Assembly: GCA_012744275.1 (NCBI GenBank)
Contig: JAAYIE010000078.1
Location: forward strand, 1 to 53,161
DNA length: 53,161 nt
Direction of reading: 5' to 3'
Origin: Desulfobulbaceae bacterium
GTDB lineage: Bacteria; Desulfobacterota; Desulfobulbia; Desulfobulbales; Desulfobulbaceae
A program made the position numbers and the translations under genes. The number at the start of each line of letters is the position of its first letter. Positions within the stretch are counted from its first letter, which is position 1. Under the pieces are notes generated by a model that had not been told where the DNA came from, made no database searches, and saw only the letters and a program-made list of their open reading frames with translations. Below are positions 21,489 to 24,768 of this stretch, in pieces.

Positions 21489-21752
21489 ATGAATGAAGAA
21501 AACAGTTGCCGTCCGGATATAGTATACCCTTGCCCCTGGCAGTATCGGCTGATTGGCGAGGATGAGGCAGCCATGCAGGCGGCCCTGGCAGAAAGCATTG
21601 ACTTGGGACGTTGCGTGCTCAGCACAGGCAATCGCAGCAGCGGCGGTCGTTACCTGAGCCTGCAGGTGGAGCTTATCGTAATGAGCGAAGAGGAACGGCT
21701 TGATTTGTACCGCCAGTTAGCGGCACATCCGGCCATCAAAATGGTACTGTAA
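21489..21752 (+). CDS. DUF493 (YbeD) family protein
   Basis: The 87-residue protein has the DUF493/YbeD pattern: YPCPWQYRLIGEDEAAM at the start of an alpha/beta sandwich, SSGGRYLSLQVELIV in the middle strands and a closing helix RLDLYRQLAAHPAIKMVL. E. coli YbeD has been linked to lipoate regulation but the role is open. Its stop overlaps the next start by one base (TAATG), a coupled pair. The ribosome site is weak. Confidence 0.82.
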   Translation: MNEENSCRPDIVYPCPWQYRLIGEDEAAMQAALAESIDLGRCVLSTGNRSSGGRYLSLQVELIVMSEEERLDLYRQLAAHPAIKMVL

Positions 21753-22273
21753 TGGAATCGACCGACGAATTAGCAAGGGGTGTACAGGCGCGGGACAACC
21801 GAGTGCTGCCTCTGATGCGTGAGGCGGTGTTGATTGTGCGCATGGTGCTGCACCGGCAACTTCTGCACAGTCTGGAAGCCCGGCGGCCGGAATTATCCGC
21901 TGCAGCCAGGGTACAGCTCTGTGGTGCGCTGATCAACAATCTCTTTGGCACTCGACCTGAAGATGCCGGCATCGTCCAGTTCGCCCGTGAAGAGCGGCAA
22001 CTTGTGGAAGAAGAGTTGCGTGCTTTGAGTGTTCACGCTGGCCAACTCCGGCCCATACTTACCGATGCCCTGCGTATGCACACTATCTGCGATGAACAGG
22101 AGGGCATCAATTCCACGGCCTCTCTCCTCATGGCCAAGGCGCTTGGGTTGCTGGAGGAAGATCGCCCCTTGCCGCTGCCTTCCACCTTTATGCTCGCGGT
22201 ACGCAGTTTGGCCGTGGCCGAGGGTCTGGTACATCCCATTATTCAACAGGAGGACGCAGGTCAACCAGGGTAG
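21752..22273 (+). CDS. Helical protein of unknown function
   Basis: I do not recognise this 173-residue protein. It is predicted to be all helical, with no signal peptide, membrane segment or metal motif; it has a long charged stretch ARRPELSAAARVQL and a conserved-looking FGTRPEDAGIVQFA. It is coupled to the DUF493 gene by a TAATG overlap. Its last 35 bases overlap the 3' end of the lpxB-smr gene on the other strand. Good length and coupling support it as real. Confidence 0.6.
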   Translation: MESTDELARGVQARDNRVLPLMREAVLIVRMVLHRQLLHSLEARRPELSAAARVQLCGALINNLFGTRPEDAGIVQFAREERQLVEEELRALSVHAGQLRPILTDALRMHTICDEQEGINSTASLLMAKALGLLEEDRPLPLPSTFMLAVRSLAVAEGLVHPIIQQEDAGQPG

Positions 22274-23726
22274 CGCCCCATTCGCCGCCATCCGGCCCAG
22301 CCAGGCGGAATCCGGCCACTATATCCATGCGTTCGAGTTGGGCATGCACAGTGCGTCGTAACACACCCTTGCCTTTACCGTGGATGATGCGTACTTGGAG
22401 AATACCGCGCTCCTGGCAGAGCGGCAGGTAATCATTCAGCAGATTCTTCACTTCACCCGGCCGGAACTGGTGCAGATCCAAGGAGCCGTCAATGGGTAGG
22501 TCGACCTTTTCTGGGAAGAAATCATCGTCAGTTTTGTTCGTTCTGTTATGCCCATCAAGGACCTGCAGCGCCAAGTGAGCAGTGCGAACCGCGGCGCCGG
22601 ACTCGCCCAGCAGCAGGCGCAGCGCAGTAAAGCCTTCTTGCATGGTTGTGCGCTCCACCCCTTCCTCAAGCAGCGGTTTGAGTTTGGCCAACAGGTGCTG
22701 TGCTGTCACTTCATTTTGCAAAAGTTCCGGCACCAGCTCCTGCCCGGCAATAAGATTGGGCAGAGAGAAAAAGGGCAGACTGCGGATAATCAGTTTGCCC
22801 AACCAGTAGGTATGACTGGCTACCCGGTAGGCCACCACCGTGGGTATGCGTAGCAGCGCCAGTTCCAGGGTCACTGTGCCCGAGGCCGCCAGACAGGCAT
22901 CGCAGGCAGCCATCATGCTGTAGCGATCTTCCGTAATGATGCGGTAGTCAAGGTGGTTTTGATAGGCAGTTAGTCCGCTTTCTTCCAGGAGTGCCCGACT
23001 GACGGTCGATGCCTGGGGAATGAGGAAGGTGAAGCGGCGCTGCGGTTCTTCTTGACAGAGCAGGGCCGCGGTTTCCAGAAAAACTGGTAACAGGGTCGCC
23101 ACCTCTTTTTTTCTGCTGCCAGGTAGCAGGCCGATGAGCTGGCTGCCTTCCTGCAGTTGGTACTGCTGCATGAACTGGCTGCGAGCCAGGCTGGGCCGCA
23201 CACTGTCCAAAAGGGGATGGCCGACAAAAGCTGCGCGATAGCCGTGTTGTGTATAAATTGCTTCTTCAAAGGGCAGAATGACGGCTACGCAGTCTGCCAG
23301 GCGGCCAATAGTATGCACCCGTTTTTTGCGCCAGGCCCAAATTTGCGGGCTGATATAGTAGAAGATGGGGATACCGAGTTTTTTGGCCTGGCTTGCCAGA
23401 AGCAGATTAAAATCTGGATAATCAATCAGAATCAGGAGCGCTGGCCGCCTTGTGCGCATGCGATTGAGCAGTTGCCGCCGCGCCCTCAGGATATCACCCA
23501 AATGGCTGAGCACTTCCACTGCACCCACCACCGCAAGCTTAGCTGCATCATAGAGCAATTCCACCCCGGCCGCCTGGAGTTCAGGGCCACCCATGCCGCA
23601 GAAATGCAGGTCTGGCCGTATCTCGCCCATGGCCTTGACCAGTGCTGCTCCGTGCATATCCCCCGAGGCCTCACCGGCCACGATCATGATATTGTGAACT
23701 TGTTCTTGATGAGTTTCTAGCGGCAT
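22239..23726 (-). CDS. lpxB: LpxB (lipid A disaccharide synthase) fused to an Smr domain
   Basis: Residues 1-392 are LpxB, which joins UDP-diacylglucosamine and lipid X to make the lipid A disaccharide: IMIVAGEASGDMHG (13-26), YISPQIWAWRKKR (124-136), LPGSRKKEV (201-209), ASGTVTLE (281-288) and PNLIAGQELVPE (323-334). Residues about 411-490 are a full Smr domain: LDLH (416-419), IIHGKGKG (447-454), VAGFRLA and GATLVDL. A short linker joins them (393-410). Normal LpxB is about 380 residues and Smr proteins are separate, so the fusion is odd. It is in frame with no stop. The gene is 22 bases after the oxidoreductase gene in the liv operon. Confidence 0.93.
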   Translation of the reverse strand: MPLETHQEQVHNIMIVAGEASGDMHGAALVKAMGEIRPDLHFCGMGGPELQAAGVELLYDAAKLAVVGAVEVLSHLGDILRARRQLLNRMRTRRPALLILIDYPDFNLLLASQAKKLGIPIFYYISPQIWAWRKKRVHTIGRLADCVAVILPFEEAIYTQHGYRAAFVGHPLLDSVRPSLARSQFMQQYQLQEGSQLIGLLPGSRKKEVATLLPVFLETAALLCQEEPQRRFTFLIPQASTVSRALLEESGLTAYQNHLDYRIITEDRYSMMAACDACLAASGTVTLELALLRIPTVVAYRVASHTYWLGKLIIRSLPFFSLPNLIAGQELVPELLQNEVTAQHLLAKLKPLLEEGVERTTMQEGFTALRLLLGESGAAVRTAHLALQVLDGHNRTNKTDDDFFPEKVDLPIDGSLDLHQFRPGEVKNLLNDYLPLCQERGILQVRIIHGKGKGVLRRTVHAQLERMDIVAGFRLAGPDGGEWGATLVDLRPPVE

Positions 23727-23748: not shown

Positions 23749-24768
23749 TTACTTTGGGCAGAGCAGCTCCGACTGCCTGAGCAGGGGACTGTCCGCGCCA
23801 GATGCGCACAGGGTTTGCAGGAGCTGCCTGGTGTTTTTTTGCACTGCCGCAATAACAGCCAGGGCCATGGCCAGGGAATCCCGTCCCTGCGCACCGGTAA
23901 CCGCAGGGTTGCTGCGGCTGCGCACGCAATGCGTGAATTCCAGCAGTTCCTGTTCCAAGGCATCGGTGAGCACAACTTCCAGTTCCGTGATGATGGGCGA
24001 TTGGGTGTCTTCGTCACCGTTGGCAGGCAGTTGCATGGTGCTGCATTTTTTGCCGTGGAAATCAATGGTCAGGCATTCGCCGGGCTGGAAAAGACGCATG
24101 CGTCGCTCCACTGTTGGCGAAACGCGGCTGGCTGTAACGTTGGCGGTGCAGCCGCTCTGGAAGACAATGTGGGCGTTGGCAATATCGGTGTGGGGGGTGA
24201 GGACCGGTGCTCCGGCGGCGCTGATACTGCTGATGGGCGACTTGACGAGCGACAGGATGATATCCAGATCGTGGATCATTAGATCGATGATAACATCTAC
24301 ATCCGTTGCCCGCCTGGTAAAGACCCCAACCCGTTTAGCCTCAATGAACAGGGGCAGGGTCAGGCGTTCTTGGGCAGCGCGCATGGCTGGGTTGAAACGT
24401 TCCACCAATCCAACCTGGAGGATGCACTCTTTCTTGGCCGCCAGATTAACCAGAGCATTTGCTTCATCCAGAGTGGAGGTAATAGGTTTTTCCATCATTA
24501 CATCTACGCCGTGCTCAAGGCAGTAGCTGCCTACTTCAAAATGCGCAGTAGTAGGCGTGACAATGGATACCGCGTCCACCTGATCAACCAGTTGGCGATA
24601 ATCGGAATAGGGTGTGGTGTTGCTTTCTTTGGCCACCATTGCCGCACGTTTATTGTTGATATCGGCAACCCCGATCAGGGTAACATGGTCCATGGCCGCA
24701 TATTTCTGGGCATGAAAACGGCCCAGATGGCCCACTCCAATAACACCGACACGAATATTCTTTGTCAT
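23749..24768 (-). CDS. Gfo/Idh/MocA oxidoreductase, GnnA candidate
   Basis: The 339-residue protein has the NAD-binding Rossmann GVIGVGHLGRFH (8-19), the catalytic-lysine motif MMEKPIT (about 91-97) and the usual C-terminal alpha/beta domain. In many desulfobacterota a member of this family lies beside lpxB; GnnA of Acidithiobacillus oxidises the 3-OH of UDP-GlcNAc so that a 3-amino lipid A can be made. That role is an inference from the lpxB neighbour only. No gnnB-type transaminase adjoins, though a DegT-family gene is 18 kb away. The start is 3 bases after livF. Confidence 0.8.
   Translation of the reverse strand: MTKNIRVGVIGVGHLGRFHAQKYAAMDHVTLIGVADINNKRAAMVAKESNTTPYSDYRQLVDQVDAVSIVTPTTAHFEVGSYCLEHGVDVMMEKPITSTLDEANALVNLAAKKECILQVGLVERFNPAMRAAQERLTLPLFIEAKRVGVFTRRATDVDVIIDLMIHDLDIILSLVKSPISSISAAGAPVLTPHTDIANAHIVFQSGCTANVTASRVSPTVERRMRLFQPGECLTIDFHGKKCSTMQLPANGDEDTQSPIITELEVVLTDALEQELLEFTHCVRSRSNPAVTGAQGRDSLAMALAVIAAVQKNTRQLLQTLCASGADSPLLRQSELLCPK

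Follow-up and report, generated by a model that had tools for sequence, protein, structure and literature searches.

The window analyzed in this study is a 53,161-nucleotide stretch from a Desulfobulbaceae bacterium (assembly GCA_012744275.1, contig JAAYIE010000078.1; genome G000 in our survey). On its minus strand, at 22239..23726, lies a single open reading frame (ORF) that runs from ATG to TAA and encodes a 495-aa protein with two Pfam domains. The first is the lipid A disaccharide synthase LpxB, which occupies residues 12-396 (22539..23693, minus strand) as delimited by Pfam, NCBIfam and the predicted model: Pfam family PF02684 matched residues 13-364 at 340 bits (cutoff 22.6), NCBIfam model TIGR00215 (lpxB) reached 326.7 bits (cutoff 190.25) over positions 8-377 of its 382, and residues 378-396 form a long C-terminal helix in the predicted model. 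A linker of residues 397-414 (22485..22538, minus strand) leads to an Smr domain at residues 415-495 (22242..22484, minus strand), which was identified by Pfam, alignment and fold. Here PF01713 matched residues 416-491 with its full profile (1-77 of 77) at 72.5 bits (cutoff 25.7), and the motifs LDLH and HGKGKG are found at residues 416-419 and 449-454, respectively. Both domain scores are well beyond the curated cutoffs. In addition, the Smr part shares 87% identity with the separate smr of each of the two closest genomes (G021 and G004), so chance does not account for the domain calls. The initial annotation, which had described LpxB and a complete Smr domain in one protein, was therefore correct in both respects.

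Compared with E. coli LpxB (5w8s, 5w8n and 5w8x), the fused protein contains the whole enzyme, with nearly the full profile aligned, and adds about 100 C-terminal residues made up of the linker and the Smr domain. The catalytic residues of the E. coli enzyme, which we take to be D98 and R201, would correspond to D102 and R205 by the alignment offset to 5w8s; both are present and are invariant in the four fused proteins described below. The fused ORF is the single LpxB match in the window genome, which also contains one LpxC, and this indirectly predicts that the fused protein carries out lipid A disaccharide synthesis. An AlphaFold2 model of the fused protein was built from 76 rows, one of 40 LpxB rows having been dropped because of an internal stop. 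It had a mean pLDDT of 92.6, with two confident domains and values below 50 at residues 399-406, and the linker is predicted to be disordered. The best PDB matches of the whole model were the same three E. coli LpxB structures, at an rmsd of about 20, which means that the parts lie differently in the model and in E. coli LpxB. The next fold matches were Tetrahymena respiratory complex I chains (8b6f_A0, 7tgh_T1 and 8gym_T1; TM about 0.55).

A Gfo/Idh/MocA oxidoreductase gene (23749..24768, minus strand) lies 22 nt upstream of lpxB and is probably part of the same operon. Its best NCBIfam match was the UDP-GlcNAc 3-dehydrogenase model (217 bits, under the cutoff of 450), and lipid A or other sugars of the envelope may be the substrates of the enzyme. 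On the other side, a convergent 173-aa ORF (21752..22273, plus strand) and the fused gene share 35 nt at their 3' ends. This ORF has no Pfam or NCBIfam match, is present in 208 of the 257 genomes of the order that were surveyed, and is convergent to smr in several relatives. It overlaps by one base a gene of the DUF493/HP0495 family (21489..21752, plus strand). Elsewhere in the genome, a second and weaker PF01713 match was found in a 164-aa ORF (L002 1333-1827, contig C24), which by eye carries two CxxC pairs, has NLH in place of DLH, and sits between ORFs that resemble RelA/SpoT and RNase PH. Since that ORF has NLH, the fusion is the sole carrier of DLH among the two PF01713 matches of the genome. 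No PADLOC match was found that would indicate an anti-phage role.

The junction between lpxB and smr

In the two genomes closest to the window, G004 and G021 (81% and 79% LpxB identity, respectively), smr stands as a gene of its own, in a frame different from that of lpxB, and its ATG precedes the end of the lpxB stop codon by 11 or 14 nt. Relative to both, the window has a net insertion of 14 nt at 22530..22543 (minus strand), whose placement is ambiguous within about 22530-22547. The codon AAA at 22533-22535 (Lys398) occupies the position of the smr start ATG of these relatives, and the corresponding peptides read MTDDDYFPE in G004, MDDDFFPE in G021 and KTDDDFFPE in the window, so that smr has lost its start codon and is read in the frame of lpxB.

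The unfused arrangement is itself compact. Among the 24 unfused junctions examined, 19 have an smr start that precedes the end of the lpxB stop codon by 4-20 nt, and in the remaining five it comes just past that codon. Desulfogranum japonicum (L034) is an example of a small stand-alone smr beside lpxB: its Smr is homologous and the gene order is the same, but the two are distinct genes, smr having its own start and overlapping the end of lpxB. A strong Shine-Dalgarno match precedes the smr ATG in G004 (-10.6 kcal/mol); a match of this strength is lacking in G021 (-3.0) and likewise in G015, G095 and G162, and is thus not a general feature. By eye, no shared slippery sequence that would suggest programmed frameshifting in the unfused relatives was seen in the printed junctions. 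According to the available text of PMC3711429, overlapping and translationally coupled gene pairs may have fused homologues elsewhere. In G078, a second genome with the fusion, the linker contains three tandem copies of an 18-nt repeat (L061 1796-1849); no such tandem repeat is present in the window linker. Fusion in G000, and perhaps that in G078 too, seems to have come about through small insertions at the junction.

The initial annotation had also pointed to a possible sequencing error in 22490-22560 that would restore a stop. The frame does differ from that of the relatives there, the window genome is a 159-contig assembly, and its closest relatives are unfused, all of which would fit two genes joined by a sequencing or assembly artefact. 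However, the window has gained a net 14 nt here and lost the smr ATG as well, which is unlike a homopolymer slip, and the same architecture occurs in three other genomes (G078, which is a single contig, G153 and G017). A one-base slip is therefore unlikely, and we regard an artefact of any kind as highly improbable.

The same junction bears on whether Smr is still released as a product of its own, in which case the fusion would have no consequence. This could happen by internal initiation, at Met362 or, in G017 and G153, at GTG codons, or by proteolysis in the linker. The in-frame ATG of Met362 (22641..22643, minus strand), a candidate start for a 134-aa product consisting of the LpxB tail and Smr, has an anti-Shine-Dalgarno duplex energy of -7.6, slightly beyond the 5% point of the background (-7.2); GTG codons in the G153 linker have matches of -4 to -6 kcal/mol, and the predicted disorder of the linker would be compatible with cleavage. 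On the other hand, the linkers of G000 and G078 contain no in-frame ATG, GTG or TTG, and the Met362 codon is also present in the unfused G004 and G021, which makes it an ordinary LpxB residue. Production of Smr on its own is thus a rather unlikely account.

Distribution and repeated origin of the fusion

We surveyed 257 genomes of the order, 238 of which match the fused protein in either part. This Smr was found at E 1e-8 or better in 107 genomes, and only in four of them does it lie in an ORF of more than 400 aa; all four ORFs are LpxB fusions without a stop. They belong to the window genome, G017 (same genus, with the contig cut inside LpxB), G078 (same family) and G153 (another family). The count of the LpxB-Smr architecture that had been suggested as a check is hence four of 107. 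The concern that the fusion might be missing from every relative did not hold, as it is absent from the two closest genomes and from 28 named loci yet present in these other three. Conversely, the idea that the fusion is a conserved trait of the group was considered and rejected, as it occurs in four of 107 genomes and at no locus among the 28 named ones.

From the rows listed, 83 of the 107 genomes allowed lpxB and smr both to be placed, the other 24 having no LpxB row to compare. They abut in 55 of the 83, as four fusions and 51 separate abutting pairs. The LpxB alignment runs past the stop into Smr in nine genomes (eight with the Smr inside it, and G096 by 20 nt), and the two matches lie within 110 nt in 42, within 3 kb in nine and apart in 19; 'apart' means on another contig or far away, so that contig breaks may explain some of the 19, and G160 holds a cut copy beside lpxB. 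Among the matches listed for other orders of the phylum, smr abuts lpxB in none of the 72 genomes with both rows (64, one of which has smr 1.9 kb from lpxB, plus eight with the genes on different contigs). In the sister lineage of the window clade (L006/L007, genomes G018 and G013), lpxB is present and no Smr match at E 1e-8 was found in either G018 (99% complete) or G013 (74% complete). The lpxB-smr fusion is derived, and separate neighbouring genes are the usual state.

A profile of the four fused proteins was also searched against 395 genomes of the phylum, 16 of which belong to this order. It matched 372, and among the matches listed only that of the window spans both domains. Six Smr ORFs of 433-517 aa, taken from the matches listed in another Smr search, have no LpxB match in the Smr frame; LpxB is weakly matched (E 0.004) at another place in G273, and the Smr part itself is unmatched in G633, G566 and G381. 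Close Smr homologues are present in 173 of the 395, and outside the order the matches listed include ORFs of 424-474 aa in G429, G282, G379 and G318. Of these four, the one read was that of G379: its long frame runs antisense to an ORF that by eye is SelB-like, and it likely has a stand-alone start near Smr. Separately, two LpxB matches in other orders lie in long open frames (G381:C4:109152-110306, 732 aa; G345:C5:318143-319288, 786 aa), which are possibly further LpxB fusions or merely open flanking frames.

An LpxB tree of 57 rows, representing 55 or so of the 238 matching genomes plus D. japonicum, was used to follow the fused label. Four changes were required (bootstrap 4-4), at least three of which are forced by supported branches. 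Every fused genome forms an isolated tip, and the window clusters with the unfused G004 and G021 (99/97). Shuffling the labels gave values as low in 500 of 500 cases; the control is uninformative for so rare a label, since four lone labels can hardly need fewer changes. For the tree, 'adjacent_separate' denotes an Smr match downstream in the fetched stretch and includes G073 (1.3 kb), G014 (400 nt), G007 (205 nt) and G160, which has the cut copy beside lpxB and its Smr row on another contig; G001, with Smr 2.9 kb away, was scored as none. The four linkers have no evident similarity by eye. Apparently, LpxB and Smr were joined in the three other species through separate events.

As a control pair we used the DUF493 gene and the 173-aa ORF, which are fused in none of 20 loci (18 different genomes, window included, with L059 and L033 repeating G004 and G021), a sample too small to tell from four of 55; 21 loci were looked at, and L117 is without the ORF. 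The matches listed for the 173-aa ORF include long open frames in G018, G012, G010, G022 and G005, all five of which are out of frame with DUF493, and further ones in G054, G055, G056, G097, G206, G210 and G216. Four fusions per 55 abutting pairs could exceed chance, and repeated fusion could instead mean that the two products gain from being joined. Such coupling would imply that the fusion was selected, either because Smr has a use at the inner membrane surface, for example in clearing collided ribosomes on membrane-protein mRNAs, or because an RNA-binding Smr tunes the level or activity of LpxB. The abutting of lpxB and smr in this order but not in others, the repeated origin of the fusion and the unfused control loci are all in line with such a benefit. 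However, each fused genome stands alone on the tree, no Smr match was found in G018, a sister genome that is nearly complete, Smr is apart from lpxB in the 19 genomes noted above (subject to contig breaks and the G160 cut copy), and the linkers, predicted to be disordered in the window protein, are not evidently similar by eye. We thus hold functional coupling to be possible, although doubtful. The narrower proposal of the initial annotation, that lipid A synthesis senses RNA, is not supported by these data: the domains are ordinarily separate neighbours, the fused tips are isolated, the linker is predicted to be disordered and G018 is without an Smr match.

The Smr domain and the meaning of the fusion

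LDLH and HGKGxG were invariant in all 37 aligned rows, window included, which are a chosen subset of the 107 genomes. The pN/pS values of Smr were 0.11 (G000 vs G004), 0.13 (G000 vs G021), 0.35 (G078 vs G095), 0.35 (G153 vs G146) and 0.42 (G017 vs G012), those of LpxB for the same pairs were 0.22, 0.22, 0.41, 0.41 and 0.42, and three unfused pairs gave 0.23, 0.28 and 0.16 for Smr; all are rough, because several pairs are almost saturated at synonymous sites and the comparisons also cover time before the fusions. The Smr model (mean pLDDT 90.7) matched the Thermus MutS2 Smr 2zqe (TM 0.86, E 3.1e-5), YdaL 3qd7 (TM 0.84, E 2.1e-4), SmrB on the E. coli disome 7qgr (TM 0.83, E 0.025) and the MutS2 chains on the B. 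subtilis disome (TM 0.74-0.75).

In the available text of PMC10897456, E. coli SmrB cleaves mRNA between collided ribosomes with DLH residues sharing in catalysis, the Smr domain of B. subtilis MutS2 binds collisions without cutting, proteins of MutS2 architecture seldom carry DLH, and three bacterial architectures are distinguished (SmrB type, MutS2 type and KOW-Smr). The fused Smr shares the DLH and HGxG motifs and the fold of the E. coli collision endonuclease SmrB (7qgr), with LpxB and a short linker in place of the N-terminal extension of SmrB. The hook of SmrB binds uS2; what precedes the fused Smr is a short low-confidence linker and not a recognised SmrB hook, and the SmrB equivalog NF003432 scored 19.1 bits, below its cutoff of 128. 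The MutS2 Smr domains (2zqe and 4och; 8qpp and 8r55 on the disome) are the closest solved structures by sequence and among the closest by fold. In contrast with MutS2, the fused protein has neither the MutS2 ATPase nor a KOW domain, Pfam recognizing LpxB and Smr only; it carries DLH, unlike most proteins of that architecture, and scored 47.6 bits against the MutS2 equivalog TIGR01069 (cutoff 400). The Smr part was also under the cutoff of the SmrA equivalog of NCBIfam. By analogy, the fused Smr is probably a collision-type RNA nuclease or binder. SmrB-like action is argued by analogy, since there is no KOW domain (Pfam), and LpxB and a short linker rather than a recognised SmrB hook precede the domain.

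Our preferred explanation, to which we give a probability of about 0.62, is a recurrent and mostly incidental fusion of the overlapping lpxB/smr pair, after which Smr goes on as a separate protein would. In relatives, lpxB is followed by a separate abutting smr, often beginning inside the last lpxB codons. In the window lineage, the net insertion of 14 nt at the smr start removed the ATG and brought smr into the lpxB frame. LpxB would keep working at the membrane surface, and Smr, on its flexible tether, would keep the job of the separate protein, most likely an SmrB-like one of binding collided ribosomes and cleaving their mRNA. The joining itself would bring little or no new function, with translational coupling exchanged for a fixed 1:1 ratio. 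It is conceivable, though something of a long shot, that LpxB instead carries an Smr nuclease of the collision type to the cytoplasmic side of the inner membrane, where it would survey envelope and membrane-protein mRNAs or let lipid A output track translation; if so, the lpxB-smr neighbourhood of this order would represent an earlier version of that link.

Each of the two families, LpxB and Smr, is known, and as far as our searches go the architecture that joins them is new. No mention of the pairing was found in the open-licence PMC literature searched. In the available text of the 2011 review (PMC3200294), Smr domains fall into MutS2, eukaryote-type and stand-alone families, and LpxB is not mentioned. 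LpxB-Smr thus adds a pairing that is not among the three bacterial Smr architectures given in the available text of PMC10897456, and provides a clean case in which one abutting gene pair was fused several times and the intermediate states can still be seen. Should the joining prove to matter, it could help to show whether collision nucleases can be positioned at the membrane; otherwise, it would serve as a warning against inferring function from domain fusion.
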